NCBI GenBank assembly: GCA_016872725.1
Contig: VGZC01000003.1
Coordinates: forward strand, 62,001 to 126,000
Direction: 5' to 3'
Length of the DNA stretch: 64,000 bases
DNA from: Planctomycetota bacterium
Lineage (GTDB): Bacteria; Planctomycetota; Planctomycetia; Pirellulales; Pirellulaceae
Both the position numbers and the translations under genes were made by a program. Shown one piece after another: positions 20,420 through 28,173 of this stretch (position 1 is its first letter; the number at the start of each line of letters is the position of its first letter). Below the pieces are notes generated by a model. That model had not been told where the DNA came from, searched no databases, and was given only the letters and a program-made list of their open reading frames with translations.

Positions 20420-21091
20420 TCAATCGCCGACGAGTCGGTCCCGTTCCCGTTCGAGATAGTCGCACCAGGATTCCATCCCCGTTCCATCGAGCGCGGCGAC
20501 CGCGATCAGGTCGAGATCCGGTTGGATGCGTCGCGCATCTTCGGCGACACGGTCCATCGAGAAGGGGACGTGCGGCAGGAGATCGCACTTGGAAACCAGC
20601 ATGAGTCGGCTGGTTCGGAACATCTTGGGGTACTTGCCCGGCTTGTCGTCCCCTTCCGTCACGCTGATCAAGACAACGCGAAGATGTTCGCCCAAGTCGT
20701 GCGACGCGGGGCAGACGAGGTTTCCGACATTCTCGATGAACAGGTATTCGAGCGGTCCGTCGCCGAGCGCGTCGATGCCGCGGCGAACCAGCGGGAATTC
20801 GAGGTGGCAGGCTCCGCCCGTCGTCAATTGCACGGTCGGCGCGAGCGGGCCGAGCCGCCGCGCGTCCCGATCGGTTTCGATGTCGCCGACCAGTACGGCG
20901 ATGCGGCGTCGTCCCGCGAATCGGCGCGCGGTGGCCTCGAGCAGCGTCGTCTTGCCGGATCCGGGTGACGAGACGAGGTGGACGACCAGCGTGCCTCGCT
21001 TCGCCATGCGGACCCGCTCGGCCGCGGCGTCCGCGTTCACGTCGGCGAGCACGTCGCGCCGCACGACAATCGTCCTCACCGTCTCAGCCAC
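20420..21091 (-). CDS. hypB: Hydrogenase nickel incorporation GTPase HypB
   Basis: 223 residues with a GTG start that has AGGAG 7 nt upstream and overlaps the hypA end by 8 bp. SIMIBI-class GTPase that drives nickel transfer with HypA. Motifs: P-loop SSPGSGKTTLLEATARRF, VGDIETDRDA, GGACHLEFPLVRRG (metal-binding Cys-His), ENVGNLVCPASHDLGEHLRV and the guanine-specificity SKCDLL. There is no N-terminal His-rich or CxxGCxxC nickel-storage segment. The frame is open to 21265 but the extra part is not family-like. Confidence 0.95.
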   Translation of the reverse strand: MAETVRTIVVRRDVLADVNADAAAERVRMAKRGTLVVHLVSSPGSGKTTLLEATARRFAGRRRIAVLVGDIETDRDARRLGPLAPTVQLTTGGACHLEFPLVRRGIDALGDGPLEYLFIENVGNLVCPASHDLGEHLRVVLISVTEGDDKPGKYPKMFRTSRLMLVSKCDLLPHVPFSMDRVAEDARRIQPDLDLIAVAALDGTGMESWCDYLERERDRLVGD

Positions 21092-21491
21092 GCGTTGACT
21101 CCTCTCGCCCGACGGGGCCTTCCGAAGACAACGTCGGACCCTCGTTGCGCGCGTCGACAAGCGTGACGCTGATGAGGCGGAACGCGTCGCCTCGCACGAA
21201 GCGCAGCCAGGCTCCACACGCCGGGCAGTCGGGACGGAAGTCCTCCATCGTATGCTCGTCGTCACACGCCGAGCAGACGCCGGTAAGTGGAACTTCGTCG
21301 ATCACGAGCGACTCGGGAATCGGGAAGTCCCCCGATTCCACACGGTGGAAAGCGGATGCAAGCAGCGTGGGATCCACGCCCGCGAGCGCGCCGACCTCGA
21401 CACGCACCTCCTTGATGCGCGAGGCATGGTGCTTTCGGCGAATGGCATCGGAATGTTCGAGTACCGAGCGAAGCAAGGATTGCTCGTGCAT
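21084..21491 (-). CDS. hypA: Hydrogenase nickel metallochaperone HypA
   Basis: 135 residues. It starts MHEQSLLRSVLEHS; His2 is a nickel ligand in this family, which fixes the ATG at 21491 even though a GTG at 21500 overlaps the protease stop. The zinc site is CSACDDEH...CPACGAWL, that is two CxxC pairs. It hands nickel to the large-subunit precursor together with HypB. Slightly longer than usual because of a C-terminal tail (SEGPVGREESTRG). Directly downstream of the maturation protease. Confidence 0.95.
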   Translation of the reverse strand: MHEQSLLRSVLEHSDAIRRKHHASRIKEVRVEVGALAGVDPTLLASAFHRVESGDFPIPESLVIDEVPLTGVCSACDDEHTMEDFRPDCPACGAWLRFVRGDAFRLISVTLVDARNEGPTLSSEGPVGREESTRG

Positions 21492-21496
21492 GCGCG

Positions 21497-21973
21497 TCAC
21501 GGCCGTTCGACCGACTCCTCGATATCCCGCACGATCCGCATGGCCAGGTCGTCCAAGATCGGCACCAGTTCGGGTGAAAGATGGGCGTCGTCCGAGTGCT
21601 GAGCCGACGGCCTTCCCTCAACGGCCCAAATCACGACGCGACTCGGGAGTTTTCCAAGCCGTTCGGCGAGCGCGAGCACCGCGGGTAGCGGCATATCGTG
21701 CGTACCCGACCAGTCCATCCGCGCATCAACGGGAATGGGCCACTCCCAACGACGCGTCGTCCCGTATGGTCCCAATCCGCGGCATGCGTCGCACAACACG
21801 AGATGGCGAACACCGTCGAGCCAATCGACCGCTTCGATCGGCGATCGGGCGATGCGCACGGCAACCCGAGCCTCCGAGGCCGCTCGGGCGACTCGGTCGG
21901 CGACGATCCAGCCCGCGCGATCGTCGCCATGCGGACTGCCGATGCCGACGACGAGCGTGCGAAGCCCCGTCAT
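21497..21973 (-). CDS. [NiFe] hydrogenase maturation protease
   Basis: 158 residues. Family A31/M52 endopeptidase that removes the C-terminal tail of the large subunit after nickel insertion. It opens with TLVVGIGSPHGDDRAGWIVA, containing the conserved metal ligand Asp in GDDRAG; VLCDACRGLGPYG carries the second ligand region. The ATG overlaps the hydA stop (ATGA), so it is coupled to its substrate gene. Family members are specific to one hydrogenase; this one should serve HydA. Confidence 0.9.
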   Translation of the reverse strand: MTGLRTLVVGIGSPHGDDRAGWIVADRVARAASEARVAVRIARSPIEAVDWLDGVRHLVLCDACRGLGPYGTTRRWEWPIPVDARMDWSGTHDMPLPAVLALAERLGKLPSRVVIWAVEGRPSAQHSDDAHLSPELVPILDDLAMRIVRDIEESVERP

Positions 21974-23292
21974 GCGCGTTCCACTCGGACGTTCAGGAAA
22001 TGCGTCGAGCAACTGATGCACGGGTCGTAACACCTCACGAGGTTCTCGCATTGTCGGGCGAGCGTCGCATCGTCCGCCGTTGCGACGTGGGGGACCCACG
22101 CCCGCAGATCGGCCTCGATTTGTCCTTGGTTCTGCGATGTGGGCGGGACGATCCGGGCTTCGCGCACCCGTCCTCCCTCATCAACGGTGTAGCGGTGAAA
22201 GAGCAGGCCTCGCGGCGCCTCGGTCGCGGCGCAACCCGCTCCCGCGCGGTACGCGTACGTGTTCCTGGCGGGGCGCGCCGGCTCGTACGATCCCAGGATC
22301 TCAAGAGCCTCCTCGTAGGCGTGGACCAACTCGATCGATCGAGCCACGATGGTCCGAAACGGATTGCCGCACGTTCGGTCGAATCCGAATTCGCGGGCCA
22401 GTTCGCGGGCCGTCGGCGAAAGATGCTCCCAATTCAATTGGACACGGGCGAGCGGACCGACCAGATAGGGGCGTCCGGTCCCGACGCGTACGGAATGAAG
22501 GGCCGTCGAATGCGCCACGTGGTCCTCGCGAAATTGCCGCTCATACTCGGCGACCGGAATCCGTTCCGCGCCGCGCCCGCCGTCCGGCCCCGGCCCGGCT
22601 TCAAGAACGCCGACATCCCCTTCGTTCATCGGATATTCGGTGTCATGAATGAGCGAGACCATTTGGTAGTCGCGGGAGAAGTCGGGGAAGTCGAACGACG
22701 CGGTCCATCGAACCGTTTCGATGGCCGCATCGACGCACCACCGGAAATCGGGAATGAGCCGTTCGAGTTCGTCCCGGCGCGGCGATCGATAAAAACCGCC
22801 CACCGCGACGTTGATCGGATGGATCGATCGGCCGCCAAGCGCCTCGATGAGTTGGTTGCCGTGCTTCTTCATGCGCAGTCCCCGGCTGACTTCTTCGGGG
22901 TACCGGCTCGCCATGTCCAGTCCGCTGTCGAAGCCGAGGAAGTCCGGCGCGTTCAGCAGATAGACGTGCAGCGCGTGGCTTTCAATCCACTCGCCGCAGT
23001 AGAGCAGGCGGCGCAGGCGGCGCACTTCGGGGGAAACCGCGACGCCGAGCGCCTGTTCCAAGGCATGCACGCTGCTCATCTGGTACGCGACCGGACAGAT
23101 GCCGCAGATGCGGGCCGTGATGTCGGGAACATCCTCGAGCGGCCTGCCGCGCAAAAGGGCCTCGAAGAAGCGGGGCGGTTCGTAGATGCGCAGTTCGATC
23201 CGCTCGACGTCCGATCCGCGCAGCTTGAGCAGGAGACCGCCCTCGCCCTCGACACGCGTCAGGATTTCGACCTGGATCGTCCGTTCGGTCAT
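21970..23292 (-). CDS. hydA: [NiFe] hydrogenase large (catalytic) subunit, group 3b type
   Basis: 440 residues. It holds the Ni-Fe site: [20 protein letters not shown] near residue 60 and DPCISCSTH near residue 425 supply the four Cys ligands. The L1 motif is TRVEGEG. The last residues after the second Cys motif (FLNVRVERA) are the tail cut by the protease. The ATG at 23292 has GAGGTG 5 nt upstream and overlaps the hydD stop (ATGA). The length, the L1/L2 motifs and the HydG/HydB neighbours place it in the bidirectional NADP(H)-linked 3b (sulfhydrogenase) group. No Tat signal, so cytoplasmic. Confidence 0.95.
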
Positions 23293-24086
23293 CGTCGCAC
23301 CTCGTCGACCCGGTCCCGCCCATCGGCCAACCGATCGCTCTCCTCGCGGAAGGCCGGCGCATAACCATTGAATGTCCGGAGGCTCTGCGCGATTCGGCCG
23401 GGCCGCATTCCGTCGGACGCGAGCCGGGCCGTCAGGCCGGCGAGGTTGGCCTGCGCGGCGGGCCCGAAGCAGGCGTAGCACCCGCGATCGTATGCGGGGC
23501 AGATCGCGCCGCAGCCCGCTTGGGTAACCGGACCGAGGCACGGCTCGCCCCGCGCCACAAGCACGCAGACCGTGCCTCGACGCTTGCAATCGATGCACAC
23601 GCTGTGCGAGGGCGTGCGGGGCCGTCGACCCGCCAGGAGCGACTGGATCACTTCGATCAATTGGTACTGGTTGATCGGGCATCCCCGCAATTCGAAGTCG
23701 ACGTGCACATGGTCGGCGATCGGCGTGGATGTCGCGAGTGTCGCGATGTATTCGGGAGTCGCGTACACCGCGCGGATGAAGTCCGTGTGATCGGCCCAGT
23801 TCTTGAGCGATTGGATTCCGCCCGCCGTCGCGCACGCGCCGATCGTAATGAGACATTTCGCATCACGGCGGACCGCCCGGATTCGCTCGGCGTCGTGCGC
23901 CGTCGTGATCGATCCTTCGACTAGAGCCACGTCGTAAGGTCCCGCCCGCATCCGGCTCGTCGCCTCGGGGAAGAACGCGATGTCCAAAGCGCCGGCGACG
24001 GCGAGCAGGTGGTCTTCGGCGTCGAGCAGCGACAACTGGCATCCGTCGCACGAGGCGAACTTGAAGACGGCAAGCTTCGGTTTCAT
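23289..24086 (-). CDS. hydD: [NiFe] hydrogenase small subunit, group 3b type
   Basis: 265 residues. Electron-transfer subunit next to HydA. The proximal [4Fe-4S] ligands begin in [22 protein letters not shown] and [14 protein letters not shown] follow, and the C-terminal half carries more Cys ([35 protein letters not shown]), enough for three clusters. There is no signal peptide. It overlaps hydA by 4 nt and lies 97 bp after hydG, the only sizeable gap within the hydrogenase run. Confidence 0.94.
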
Positions 24087-24183: not shown

Positions 24184-25050
24184 TCAAAACGCTTCAACAT
24201 CCAGGAAGGGGGCCACACGATCGTAGCGAAACACGGGCCCGTCGCGGCATACGAATTCGCCGCCCATCTGGCAATGCCCGCAAAGACCGACACCGCACTG
24301 CATGTTGCGTTCGAGCGATACCCAGATTCGGTCGGGCGCGAACCCGCGGTTCAGCGCCGCGGCGATCGTGAACCGCATCATCACTTCCGGCCCGCAGCAC
24401 ATCAGCACGGCGTTCCGCGCGTCGATCGCGTCGAGCCTCTCGAGCAGCAGGGTCGCAACGCCGACATGGCCGGTCCATCGCGAGTCGGCACGGTCGACCG
24501 TCGTATGCACCCGTATCCCGGCTTGCGACCATTCCTCGTATTGTCGCCAATAAAGCAGGCTCTCCGGCGACCGCGCGCCGTAGAGCAGATGGCGGCGGCC
24601 GAACTGGCGCGCGTTTCGCATGAGCGATCCGATGGCCGGTCGAAGGGGCGCGAGGCCGATCCCGCCCGCGACCAGGACCACATCGCGTCCGATGCAGTCG
24701 GTGATCGGCCAACTCGTTCCAAACGGACCTCGAAGGCCCAACGTGTCGCCGGGGCGAAGTCCGGTGAGCGTCTTGGTGACGTTGCCCGCGACGCGCACCG
24801 TGTGGCGGTAACCGGCCGAGGTCGCCCGGTCCTCGCTGATCGATATGGCGCATTCCCCGGCGCCCGGAAGATAGAGCATGTTGAATTGCCCCGGCGCGAA
24901 ACGGTACGCGGCCCCGGCCGACTCGTCGCGGAACGCCAAGTCATACGTCGCGACCCCCTCGACTTCGGCGAGGATTTCACGGACCCGGACCGTGTGGGTC
25001 CGCCAGGGACGCAGCCCCGCGGCGGCGGCCGATCGAGATGCATCGCGCAT
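24184..25050 (-). CDS. hydG: Hydrogenase FAD/NAD(P)-binding subunit
   Basis: 288 residues. Ferredoxin-reductase-like diaphorase subunit. FAD domain FAPGQFNMLYLPGAGECAIS, nucleotide-binding domain VVLVAGGIGLAPLRPAI and LMCCGPEVMMRF, C-terminal [2Fe-2S] motif NMQCGVGLCGHCQMG...VC. The start at 25050 shares one base with the hydB stop (TAATG), and a GAGGGA stands 8 nt upstream; the frame upstream of it belongs to hydB. It should pass electrons between NAD(P)H and the Fe-S chain of HydB/HydD. Confidence 0.93.
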   Translation of the reverse strand: MRDASRSAAAAGLRPWRTHTVRVREILAEVEGVATYDLAFRDESAGAAYRFAPGQFNMLYLPGAGECAISISEDRATSAGYRHTVRVAGNVTKTLTGLRPGDTLGLRGPFGTSWPITDCIGRDVVLVAGGIGLAPLRPAIGSLMRNARQFGRRHLLYGARSPESLLYWRQYEEWSQAGIRVHTTVDRADSRWTGHVGVATLLLERLDAIDARNAVLMCCGPEVMMRFTIAAALNRGFAPDRIWVSLERNMQCGVGLCGHCQMGGEFVCRDGPVFRYDRVAPFLDVEAF

Positions 25051-26189
25051 TACGAAGATCCCTCGGAAACAGGCGCGTCGCCGCGGATGGCGAGCACTTC
25101 CTCGGTGAGGTCGATGCCGGACGGGCACCACGTGATGCACCGGCCGCAACCCACGCAGCCCGATGTCCCAAACTGGTCGTTCCAGGACGCGAGCTTGTGC
25201 GTGAGCCACTGCCGGTAACGCGACCGGATCGAATCGCGCACATGACCTCCGTTCATATAGCTGAAGTCGATGTTGAAACACGAATCCCACCGCCTGCGGC
25301 GCTCGACCCGGCCCCCCGCAAGGTCGCTCACTTCCTCGACCGAACCGCAGAAACAGGTCGGGCAGACCATGGTGCAATTCGCGCACGACAGGCAGCGCGA
25401 CGCCGTTTCGTCCCAGCGGGGATGTTCGAGATTGTCCATGAGCAGGTCGCGGAGTCCGCGCGTATCCAACGATCGTTCGATTTGTTCGGACGCCGACCGT
25501 CTCGCCGCCTGCGCGGCCCGCAATTGGGAAATCGACGCCTCGGACGAATCCAACGTCGCGAGTAGGGCGGCTCCTTCCGCCGTGCCGACCTCGACAACGA
25601 ACCCGTCGGACAATTCCGTCAGCGCCAGGTCGAATCCGCTCGTGCAGCGTGGGCCCGTCCCCATCGACGGGCAAAAACAGGTGGACGCGGCCTGCTCGCA
25701 ATTCACGGCGACGATCAGGGCCCGCGTCCTGCGGCCCTCATAGATCGGATCGACGTACGATTCGGCGAGGAACACGCGGTCCTGTACGCGGATCGCCGCG
25801 ATTTCGCACGCGCGCACGCCCAGGAAGGCGAACTTCGGCGGCGCGTCGTCCGCCTCCTTGAACTCCCAGTCGCCGCCTTCCCGCGCTGCGCGCGCGATGA
25901 CCACTGGCGTCGGAAAAAGATATCCCTTCCACGAATGCGGGCCGACAACGTACCCGAACCACGCGTCGTCCGTCCGACGCCGTACGCGGTACGAACCCGG
26001 TTGCTGCTCGTCGGTCCATCCCCTCGGAAGATCGTCCACCGAACGGATCCGGTCGTAGACGATCGCATGTTGATCGAGCGTGGGGCCGATGACCGAATAG
26101 CCCATCGCCTCGAGTTGTTCGAGCAGGCAGGGGAAGCGGTCCTTGTGCAGGAATCGTTGGCCCGCGTCCGCGCCCGAATGACCGTTCAT
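25050..26189 (-). CDS. hydB: Hydrogenase Fe-S subunit (HydB type)
   Basis: 379 residues. Ferredoxin-like electron-transfer subunit of the diaphorase module. Two [4Fe-4S] motifs in the C-terminal half: CLSCANCTMVCPTCFC and CVGCGRCITWCPSGID. The N-terminal half (FLGVRACEIAAIRVQDRVFL, CEQAASTCFCPSMGTGPRC) is typical of the 4Fe-4S dicluster family 17/HydB proteins. The ATG at 26189 overlaps the stop of the cNMP-domain gene (ATGA) and has AGGAG 7 nt upstream. Confidence 0.93.
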   Translation of the reverse strand: MNGHSGADAGQRFLHKDRFPCLLEQLEAMGYSVIGPTLDQHAIVYDRIRSVDDLPRGWTDEQQPGSYRVRRRTDDAWFGYVVGPHSWKGYLFPTPVVIARAAREGGDWEFKEADDAPPKFAFLGVRACEIAAIRVQDRVFLAESYVDPIYEGRRTRALIVAVNCEQAASTCFCPSMGTGPRCTSGFDLALTELSDGFVVEVGTAEGAALLATLDSSEASISQLRAAQAARRSASEQIERSLDTRGLRDLLMDNLEHPRWDETASRCLSCANCTMVCPTCFCGSVEEVSDLAGGRVERRRRWDSCFNIDFSYMNGGHVRDSIRSRYRQWLTHKLASWNDQFGTSGCVGCGRCITWCPSGIDLTEEVLAIRGDAPVSEGSS

Positions 26190-26698
26190 GGCCCGTCTCC
26201 TGGTTCGAGACGAACCGGCGCCGCGGCGCCGGCGGGAAGGTCCGCGAAGAGGTCGAGGAGTTGGAGGCGTGTGGCGACGAGTCGCTGGGCGAGCGCCGCG
26301 GCCATCCGCCTCATGATCTGAAACCCGAAGTGGTGATCGGATTCGCAAAGCCGCAGAAGGCCGTGCGAGTCGATGACGACCAATTCGGAATCATCGAGCG
26401 CGACGGCGCCGGCGGTCATCTTGCCTTCGCCCAAGAGAGCGGACCAGCCGATCATCTCGCCGGGACCGAGCGTCAGGATGCGGACCGAACCGCGCCCGGG
26501 GACCTTCATGTCGAGGGCGACCTTGCCCTTGCGAAGCAGATAGAGGTTCGCGTTCCGGGTCCCTTCGCGGAAGATGACGGACCCCGACGCGGCGCGCTGC
26601 AGGCTTGCCGCGTCGGCGAGCCGCGCGATGACCTCGGAAGGCACTTCGGCGAGGAACCGAAGTTCCTCGAGTGCGTACCGCACGTGTTCAACGTCCAT
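26186..26698 (-). CDS. Cyclic-nucleotide-binding-domain protein without a DNA-binding domain
   Basis: 170 residues. A single cNMP/CRP-type beta-roll: VIFREGTRNANLYLLRKGKV, LTLGPGEMIGWSALLGEGKM, then a long C-terminal helix. No helix-turn-helix follows, unlike Crp/Fnr, so it is unlikely to bind DNA by itself. The PBC position reads LGEGKMTAGAVA, where the usual phosphate-binding RxA is altered, so the ligand is uncertain. It lies 5 bp after nfnB and overlaps hydB by 4 nt, so it is made in step with the hydrogenase and may be a regulatory subunit. Confidence 0.85.
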   Translation of the reverse strand: MDVEHVRYALEELRFLAEVPSEVIARLADAASLQRAASGSVIFREGTRNANLYLLRKGKVALDMKVPGRGSVRILTLGPGEMIGWSALLGEGKMTAGAVALDDSELVVIDSHGLLRLCESDHHFGFQIMRRMAAALAQRLVATRLQLLDLFADLPAGAAAPVRLEPGDGP

Positions 26699-26703
26699 GG
26701 CAT

Positions 26704-28173
26704 TCAGCTCCCCGGGTTCGCGGCGGCCACGGCCTGCTCGGATCGCGACGGAACGTTCCGCAGGAACGCGTCGATCGACGCGGCGGCGCGGCGTCCCGCC
26801 CCCATGGCGAGGATAACGGTGGCGCTCCCCGTCACAATATCGCCTCCCGCGAAGACCCCGGGCCGCGACGTGCGCAGAGTCTCGGGGTCGGCCGCGATGT
26901 ATCCGCGACGGTCCGTATCGAGGTTCGGCGTGGACCGCTGGATGAGCGGATTCGCGCCGGTTCCGAGCGCGATGATGGCGACGTCCATCGGAACGTCGAA
27001 TTCGCTCCCTTCGATCGGCACGGGGCTTCGGCGGCCGGTCGCGTCGGGGTCGCCCAATCCCATGCGTCGGCATCGCGCCGCGCGCAGTCGGCCCGCTTCG
27101 TCGCCGAGGAACGCGATGGGCGTCGCGAGTGTGAGGAATTCCACGCCTTCCTCCTTCGCGTGACCGACTTCCTCGAGCCGCGCCGGCATTTCCTTCTCGG
27201 TTCGCCGATAGATCACCAGCGTGCGCCGCGCGCCGAGCCGCAGCGCGGTGCGCACGGAATCGAGGGCCGTGTTGCCGCCACCGATCACCGCGGCGATTCG
27301 ATCCCGGCACGCGTAGACCGGCTCGTCGAATTCGGGAAACCGCGCCGCGTTCATCAGGTTCACGCGCGTCAGGAATTCGTTCGCGGAATAGACGCCGACG
27401 AGATGCTCGCCGGGAACCCCGAGGAATTTCGGAAGCCCCGCGCCCGTCGCGACGAAGACCGCGTCGAACGCCTCTTCGCCGAGCAGTTCGTCGATCGTGA
27501 TCGTCTTGCCGATCACGATGTTGGTTTCGAAGACGATCCCCATGCGCCGCAGATTGTCGATCTCGCTCCGCACGATCTCCTTCGGCAAACGGAATTCGGG
27601 GATCCCGTACATCAGGACCCCGCCCGGTTCATGAAGGGCTTCGAAGACGGTGACATCGTGCCCCTTGAGCGTGAGATCGCCGGCGGCGCTGAGTCCGGCG
27701 GGTCCGCTGCCCACGACGGCGACCCGTTTACCCGTCGCGGGCGCCCGCGCGGGAAGCGATACGTGGCCGGCGTTCCGTTCGTAGTCGGCGACAAACCGTT
27801 CGAGATATCCAATCCCGAGCGGCGCGAGTTTCTTGCCGAGGATGCAGGCCCCTTCGCATTGGTGTTCCTGGGGGCAGACGCGACCGGTGACCGCCGGCAA
27901 CACGTTGTCCTCGCGGATCTTCGCCGCCGCCGCCGCGAAATCGCCTTCCTGGACGAGTTGCGCGAACTCACGCACCTTGACGCCCACGGGGCAACCCTCG
28001 ACGCACTTGGGATGCGCGCATTCGATGCAGCGCGACGCCTCCGTGTGCGCCTGAAGGGGCGTAAGACCAAGATTCACTTCGCAAAAACCCGATCGACGCA
28101 GGTCGGCCGATTCGGCCGGCATCTCTTGCCGGGGGATCTTGGCGCGTTCCTTGGGCTTGAGCGGGTTCGTCAC
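26704..28173 (-). CDS. nfnB: NfnB/SudA-type NADPH-binding oxidoreductase (GltD family)
   Basis: 489 residues, GTG start overlapping the nfnA stop (GTGA). N-terminal Fe-S motifs CIECAHPKCVEGCPVGV and CPQEHQCEGAC; FAD-binding VVGSGPAGLSAAGDLTLKGH; NADPH-binding AVIGGGNTALDSVRTALRLG; C-terminal FAGGDIVTGSATVILAMGAG. It matches the large subunit of NADH-dependent ferredoxin:NADP oxidoreductase (Nfn) and of sulfide dehydrogenase. The adjacent NfnA rules out ordinary glutamate synthase small chain, since no gltB is present. Likely couples NADPH with NADH and ferredoxin. Confidence 0.88.
   Translation of the reverse strand: MTNPLKPKERAKIPRQEMPAESADLRRSGFCEVNLGLTPLQAHTEASRCIECAHPKCVEGCPVGVKVREFAQLVQEGDFAAAAAKIREDNVLPAVTGRVCPQEHQCEGACILGKKLAPLGIGYLERFVADYERNAGHVSLPARAPATGKRVAVVGSGPAGLSAAGDLTLKGHDVTVFEALHEPGGVLMYGIPEFRLPKEIVRSEIDNLRRMGIVFETNIVIGKTITIDELLGEEAFDAVFVATGAGLPKFLGVPGEHLVGVYSANEFLTRVNLMNAARFPEFDEPVYACRDRIAAVIGGGNTALDSVRTALRLGARRTLVIYRRTEKEMPARLEEVGHAKEEGVEFLTLATPIAFLGDEAGRLRAARCRRMGLGDPDATGRRSPVPIEGSEFDVPMDVAIIALGTGANPLIQRSTPNLDTDRRGYIAADPETLRTSRPGVFAGGDIVTGSATVILAMGAGRRAAASIDAFLRNVPSRSEQAVAAANPGS

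Follow-up and report, generated by a model that had tools for sequence, protein, structure and literature searches.

A cyclic-nucleotide-binding-fold protein encoded beside one type of HydB in group 3b hydrogenase operons: a candidate accessory subunit

Why should the gene for a small protein with a cyclic-nucleotide-binding (cNMP) fold be located between the subunit genes of a [NiFe] hydrogenase? The question arises from a stretch of 64,000 nucleotides of planctomycete DNA (the window), in which such a gene directly precedes hydB. To our knowledge, the control of H2 production versus H2 consumption by group 3b hydrogenases is poorly understood, and a conserved small partner protein with a defined tail motif would be a direct and testable candidate for the control of this direction.

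The gene encodes a protein of 170 amino acids (P0001), identified by its translation, by the Pfam family PF00027 and by its predicted fold. It is on the minus strand (window 26186..26698) and reads from an ATG, beginning at 26698, to a TGA, ending at 26186. Upstream, and also on the minus strand, are genes for an nfnA-like FAD/NAD-binding subunit (PRK06222; 28170..29144) and an nfnB-like subunit of the GltA/PRK12778 family (26704..28173), both assigned by NCBIfam. The close packing of the genes described in the initial annotation is borne out by the coordinates: the stop codon of nfnB ends at 26704, leaving a gap of 5 bp (26703-26699), and the TGA of the cNMP gene (26188-26186) overlaps the ATG of hydB (26189-26187) by four nucleotides, in the sequence ATGA. 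By eye, Shine-Dalgarno-like sequences precede both starts (GGGGAG at 26713-26708 for the cNMP gene, GGAGA at 26200-26196 for hydB).

The remaining genes of the operon are also on the minus strand. First is hydB (25050..26189; NCBIfam and PF17179), which encodes an iron-sulfur subunit of the long type with 379 amino acids (P0002). It is followed by hydG (FAD/NAD(P)-binding subunit; 24184..25050), whose ATG (25050-25048) overlaps the hydB stop by one base, by hydD (hydrogenase small subunit; 23289..24086) and by hydA (hydrogenase large subunit; 21970..23292), all three assigned by Pfam and NCBIfam. HydA was further recognised by its motifs RICGICP and DPCISCSTH, which we take to be NiFe motifs. 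Then come genes for a hydrogenase maturation protease (21497..22099; TIGR00072, over its cut-off), hypA (21084..21500; PF01155) and hypB (20420..21265; TIGR00073, over its cut-off), so that the order is nfnA, nfnB, cNMP, hydB, hydG, hydD, hydA, protease, hypA, hypB. The features of group 3b, i.e., hydB, hydG, hydD and hydA together with the NiFe motifs of the large subunit, are present. In NCBIfam, sulfhydrogenase subunits rank first or among the first for the hyd genes, though no score reaches its equivalog cut-off; the top matches of hydB are HydB/ShyB/AsrA, all likewise under their cut-offs.

One explanation would be a chance neighbourhood in one genome, and the genes on the upstream side of the operon are in keeping with it. 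The position of nfnAB directly upstream would link NADPH supply to the hydrogenase. However, nfnA and nfnB were not found on the pieces from relatives (L004-L009, L081 and L083, with about 5 to 7.5 kb upstream, and L082, with 1.8 kb), and a search for nfnB in eight genomes found close relatives in G008 and G352, on contigs other than those of the hyd genes. Thus, the adjacency of nfnAB to the hyd operon is not conserved among the relatives examined.

The situation is different for the cNMP gene. HydB was searched for in 294 genomes of the phylum of the window, and two types were distinguished by their match to P0002: long HydB (E<=3.5e-99; 40 loci) and short HydB (about 1e-29 to 1e-52; 59 loci). 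The family gene is beside long HydB in 38 of the 40 planctomycete loci, the window included, in the order cNMP-hydB in 11 and hydB-cNMP in 27; among these 38, the G219 copy is frameshifted and the G135 copy is about 1 kb away. Chloroflexota (251 genomes searched) have the gene in 29 of the 30 long-HydB loci examined, before hydB in 16 and after it in 13; one of the positive loci, L111, is cut by a contig end, and two further matches, in G510 and G476, are outside the 30 loci. Of the long-HydB loci on plasmids (eight of 13 records, the other five looking like near-copies), six have the order hydB-cNMP-hydG: Burkholderia, Paraburkholderia, Pandoraea, two Rhodococcus and one Streptomyces. The search of other hydBGDA operons that the initial annotation had proposed, with absence from all other 3b operons as the outcome that would count against its reading, has located the gene beside one HydB type in four phyla. 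Because the linkage recurs at these frequencies, the neighbourhood is more than chance, and because both orders occur, cNMP-hydB and hydB-cNMP-hydG, the linkage has survived rearrangement. Coincidence in a single genome can therefore be given a negligible probability, and the conservation of the gene is much stronger than a single sequence could reveal.

The linkage is specific for the type of HydB. The family gene was found near only two of the 59 short-HydB loci or, counting those pieces on which hydA is clear, two of 24; many of the 59 pieces are cut by contig ends, 35 have no clear hydA, some may encode other enzymes, and the set extends to HydB matches with E of about 1e-28. The two positive loci are in G109 (L191), where the gene is divergent from hydB, and in G088 (L209), where it follows hydA. 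Sulfhydrogenase I of Pyrococcus furiosus (PDB 9nez/9nf0, entries which we take to be from this organism) has a beta subunit that is homologous to HydB and aligns to P0002 only from residue 109, as does short HydB. We know of no cNMP subunit in this enzyme. An insert at about residues 45-75 of P0002 marks the long-HydB clade. It was considered as a docking site for the cNMP protein and rejected: an operon without the gene (L075) retains the insert, so clade and function are inseparable for this feature.

Nor is the linkage to long HydB universal. The gene is missing from the long-HydB loci of two planctomycetes (G116 and G331), from one Chloroflexota locus (L134, in G384) and from the long-HydB operons of two Streptomyces plasmids; G177, whose HydB is split into two fragments, was excluded from the 40 loci (its locus L074 lies at a contig end and shows no gene). 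G007 and G009 are outside the sample of 294 genomes and hence not in the 40: in the former, a piece of 9 kb carries a long-HydB operon that lacks the gene (L167, G007:C433), and the latter has a HydB fragment without it (L168). A further case is M. smegmatis Hyd3, presumably a 3b enzyme. Its beta and gamma subunits have consecutive tags in Table 2 of PMC2799521, in the part of that report available, hence there is no gene between them. Because the gene is missing in G116, G331, L134, the Streptomyces plasmids, L167 and Hyd3, it cannot be a requirement of every such enzyme.

What kind of protein does the gene encode? PF00027 is the sole Pfam domain at E values up to 0.01 (residues 35-121; 61.3 bits against a cut-off of 27.5), and NCBIfam returned six cNMP-domain families, all far under their cut-offs. 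An AlphaFold2 model built with seven sequences (mean pLDDT 84.9, pTM 0.76) comprises a beta-roll, then a single long helix (residues 122-152) and a low-confidence tail, of which residues 163-170 have pLDDT below 50; this leaves no space for a helix-turn-helix. Thus, neither the DNA-binding domain that had been described as absent, nor the helix-turn-helix that might have been missed, was found by Pfam, by NCBIfam or in the predicted fold. Membership of the cNMP-fold superfamily (PF00027) is indicated by profile and by fold. The top structural matches are ordinary cNMP domains: 3gyd_A (Z 19.1, rmsd 2.6, 154 residues aligned), followed by 3mdp (Z 18.9, rmsd 2.1, 132 residues aligned). Among the best 60 matches listed in each of two PDB sequence searches there was no family member, all being generic cNMP domains. 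The protein has the beta-roll and the C-helix in common with CRP/FNR regulators, but it lacks their helix-turn-helix and their Glu/Arg pair.

This pair belongs to the phosphate-binding cassette of cNMP receptors, in which Glu holds the ribose and Arg holds the cyclic phosphate. In the window protein, comparison of column tables with CRP and other outgroups reveals a degenerate cassette (residues 84-100, GWSALLGEGKMTAGAVA; window 26399..26449, minus strand), with Trp85 in place of the canonical Glu and Met94 in place of the canonical Arg. The altered string LGEGKMTAGAVA, to which the initial annotation had drawn attention, corresponds to residues 89-100, and the alteration extends further than had been claimed, as both canonical contacts are gone here and in nearly the whole family. 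This was scored in 91 operon rows, after removal of 16 duplicate loci, L054 (frameshift), L111 (contig end) and L137 (gene outside the operon). Glu85 is found in 0/91 rows, Trp85 in 85/91 and Ser86 in 88/91; Arg94 is found in 8/91 and is absent from 83/91, and no row has both Glu and Arg. An ordinary cAMP or cGMP receptor, which would couple the hydrogenase to cyclic-nucleotide signalling, would have this same fold, and a single match to PF00211, the class III cyclase family, is present in the genome; given the loss of the residues that such a receptor would use, this explanation is very improbable. Between its fixed points the cassette is strongly variable within the family (compare PPYRWxFDA with GxGxMTAxA), and because of this variation one shared ligand for the family is not suggested.

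The family rows form a single clade in the tree, comprising 97 of 104 rows with support of 100/99 or, after the addition of seven more genes, 104 of 111 rows with support of 100/95. The clade is separate from CRP, from HoxI of the Cupriavidus soluble hydrogenase and from other cNMP proteins. It has two signatures: W-S at the position of the ligand-binding Glu, and the ending L-D-x-[F/Y] of the last helix. The window protein is a member of the clade and has both signatures; its nearest named relatives are from planctomycete MAGs and are 46-60% identical. The helix signature, a proposed contact with the hydrogenase, was delimited by conserved columns (residues 139-151, RLVATRLQLLDLF; window 26246..26284, minus strand). 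Of the 91 operon rows, Arg139 is present in 91, Leu140 in 86, Arg144 in 88, Gln or Arg at position 146 in 89, Asp149 in 88, and Phe or Tyr at position 151 in 91. The W-S signature is kept also in most relatives outside hyd operons, with W-D in L163.

Since other bacteria usually retain the gene next to this type of enzyme, its product is probably a component of the hydrogenase with a role in docking or sensing. The reading that we favour on balance, from sequence comparison and by analogy, is that of an accessory subunit of the group 3b HydBGDA enzyme, in which a CRP-type roll without a DNA-binding domain adjusts or stabilises the enzyme, and in which any ligand would be other than an ordinary cyclic nucleotide. 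The protein would dock on the hydrogenase through its C-terminal helix (RLxATRLQLLD-x-[F/Y]), most likely on the electron-entry half formed by HydB and HydG. The beta-roll may then adjust or stabilise this half, by analogy with HoxI, which lets NADPH reactivate the Cupriavidus enzyme. A first guess for the ligand, if there is one, would be a pyridine nucleotide such as NADP(H), because of the HoxI precedent and because the enzyme is NADP-linked; the variable pocket urges caution.

How close is the analogy with HoxI? The NAD+-reducing soluble hydrogenase that carries HoxI belongs to group 3d, not 3b. HoxI (of HoxFUYHI2, from C. necator, also named Ralstonia eutropha) is likewise a stand-alone cNMP-fold protein, of 167 amino acids and with PF00027 as its sole Pfam match, and both it and the cNMP gene are encoded with a cytoplasmic NAD(P)-linked [NiFe] hydrogenase. 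The HoxI cassette has His in place of Arg, and so it too is without the Arg; unlike the family, however, it has kept the Glu, and it has neither the W-S nor the LDx[F/Y] tail. The hoxI gene follows the maturation protease gene, not the diaphorase genes. BLASTP produced no real alignment with C. necator HoxI, and the profile scores of HoxI (69.1) and E. coli CRP (63.7) are close together. An AU test of a joint clade of the family and HoxI (p-AU 0.516, with long branches) neither rejects nor shows such a clade. According to the available text of two reports, HoxI is a homodimer of a small subunit that is located on the diaphorase half (PMC3702609; PMC3189943). In the available part of the former, NADPH activation is described only for the six-subunit (HoxI-containing) form of the C. 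necator enzyme (PMC3702609); in H. pseudoflava no hoxI was found, yet its enzyme does respond to NADPH, which lengthens the lag, according to the available part of PMC12809855. By analogy, it is plausible that the cNMP protein works like HoxI.

The main rival to a regulatory subunit is a ligand-free structural role. A purely structural or assembly subunit, the roll of which would stabilise or dimerise the hydrogenase, could dispense with canonical contacts, and these are rare or gone in the operon rows; the pocket region is variable and the helix tail constant, and residues 81-90 have the lowest model confidence among the blocks that span residues 1-150. Such a role is possible, but we consider it unlikely, because the W-S at the Glu position is itself conserved, even in most non-operon relatives, which suggests that the pocket has a kept, if altered, role. 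In addition, the cassette of HoxI also lacks the Arg, yet HoxI is reported to confer NADPH activation (available text of PMC3702609).

If, instead, the cNMP protein is an accessory subunit that docks through its helix, what becomes of the tail where there is no hydrogenase to dock on? In genomes without a HydB match, Phe or Tyr at position 151 is found in none of the six family copies (five genomes). Four of these genomes (G003, G047, G052 and G053) are 95-99% complete and have no HydB at E<=1e-30; residue 151 is Ser in G003 and in G047, and Leu and Gly in the two copies of G053, and the G052 protein ends before this position. The copy in G190, which had no HydB match in the search of 294 genomes, ends in RLDATRRQLARRL and by eye is without [F/Y]151. 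Five of the HydB-less copies are on the tree, where they represent about three independent lineages and four of them nest inside the operon copies; because there are only about three lineages, the support from tail loss is real but small. The tail is kept by several copies that are not in a long-HydB operon. In G331 and on the plasmid of Streptomyces NBC_01340 (L137), the hyd operon is without the gene, and the family copies elsewhere (on another contig, and about 9 kb away on the other strand, respectively) end in LLDLF and LLDLY. The second copy in G040 ends in LLDVF, and the G109 copy, divergent from short HydB, keeps LLDMF. Two copies go against the pattern: the second G219 copy lacks the tail although HydB is present, and the G088 copy that follows hydA reads INLI, again with HydB present. 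The Streptomyces copies L144 and L145 retain the tail motif, and no HydB was found on their plasmids, the sole replicons searched. From these sequences, we read the tail motif as the hydrogenase contact.

The same copies bear on another explanation, namely that the protein senses stress or redox state independently of the hydrogenase, shares no more than a transcript with it and acts on other proteins. The HydB-less copies in G053, G003 and G047 are near CBS-domain, CoA-ligase, PFOR, phosphofructokinase, thiolase or universal-stress genes, and two Streptomyces plasmid copies are near universal-stress, CBS, carbonic anhydrase or glucose-6-phosphate dehydrogenase genes; these neighbours are what such a sensor might be expected to have, and it would also accommodate the absence of the gene from some long-HydB operons. 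For the G052 copy, NCBIfam gave no match to any of the three neighbours scanned, and the four scanned around the G331 copy included no fermentation or stress genes. A separate sensor would not call for a linkage to long HydB that is almost constant and occurs in two orders and four phyla, nor for the absence of the tail motif from the six copies of genomes without a HydB match, nor for the nesting of four of the five on the tree among the operon copies. It is accordingly quite improbable, and an accessory subunit of the hydrogenase remains the preferred reading.

Such a partner protein would carry the idea behind HoxI, developed for one well-studied enzyme, over to a large family. As a concept it is familiar from HoxI, and genes of this kind in 3b clusters have already appeared in print: in the available text, a gene of the Hyd-3b cluster of 'M. 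acidophilus' 29 is called 'HoxI' (PMC12319191), and the 3b cluster of Rhodococcus equi is described as including a cNMP-binding-domain protein (PMC13332983). Going by their description, these two genes are likely to be members of the family; the available parts of PMC12319191 and PMC13332983 contain no family, motif or linkage analysis. Among the matches listed in a search of the open-licence literature by title and abstract opening, there was no experimental study of a 3b-associated cNMP protein; nor did these matches include the linkage counts, the almost exclusive association with a single HydB type, the clade with two signatures or the loss of the tail in HydB-less genomes.

Relatives of the family also occur beside a different hydrogenase. 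In L164 (G007:C127) and L166 (G009:C601), a family relative comes after the gene for the large subunit of a VhuA-like hydrogenase. The neighbours in G007 match HdrA2, VhuD, VhuG and VhuA, none of them reaching its curated cut-off, and downstream there is hypB, which is over its own; on the G009 contig only the VhuA-like end is present. The large subunit in G007 shares 38% identity with HoxH of C. necator and 28% with HydA of the window, so it is from the neighbouring HdrA2 and VhuD that this hydrogenase is assigned to a class, probably 3c. Both relatives keep the W-S but end in VQLATID or VQLATVD; both genomes have HydB, so these copies, too, go against the pattern of tail conservation. Because these relatives adjoin a Vhu-like hydrogenase, the family is not limited to 3b enzymes. 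Perhaps the family is a widespread, unnamed class of ligand-sensing subunits that belong to group 3 hydrogenases and have a pocket (W-S) and a docking tail of their own; variants of this tail would serve different enzymes (mostly 3b HydBGDA, and Vhu-like enzymes with HdrA2 in G007 and probably in G009). On the sequence evidence this broader proposal is a speculative one that we regard as rather doubtful. If it were true, hydrogenases linked to NAD(P) and to ferredoxin would generally be fitted with a CRP-like redox valve, of which HoxI would be just one example.

Some minor observations on the arrangement of these genes can be added. In G007, the long-HydB operon is without the gene (L167), while the family copy of that genome adjoins another hydrogenase. 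The copies L077, L078, L079, L160, L144 and L145, all outside hyd operons, are near genes for PFOR, ADP-forming CoA ligase, CBS, universal stress protein, thiolase and phosphofructokinase. An apparent fusion of the cNMP protein to HydG in G219 (L054/L076, G219:C282) was rejected as a frameshift artefact, because reading in three frames reveals that the last helix continues in another frame; the frameshift falls just before this helix. Among the ORFs of the loci up to L145, no other was found that joins the cNMP protein to a hydrogenase subunit. HydB and HydG themselves are fused in one ORF, with the cNMP gene upstream, in ten Chloroflexota loci (L115, L118, L119, L120, L125, L127, L128, L129, L133 and L135).
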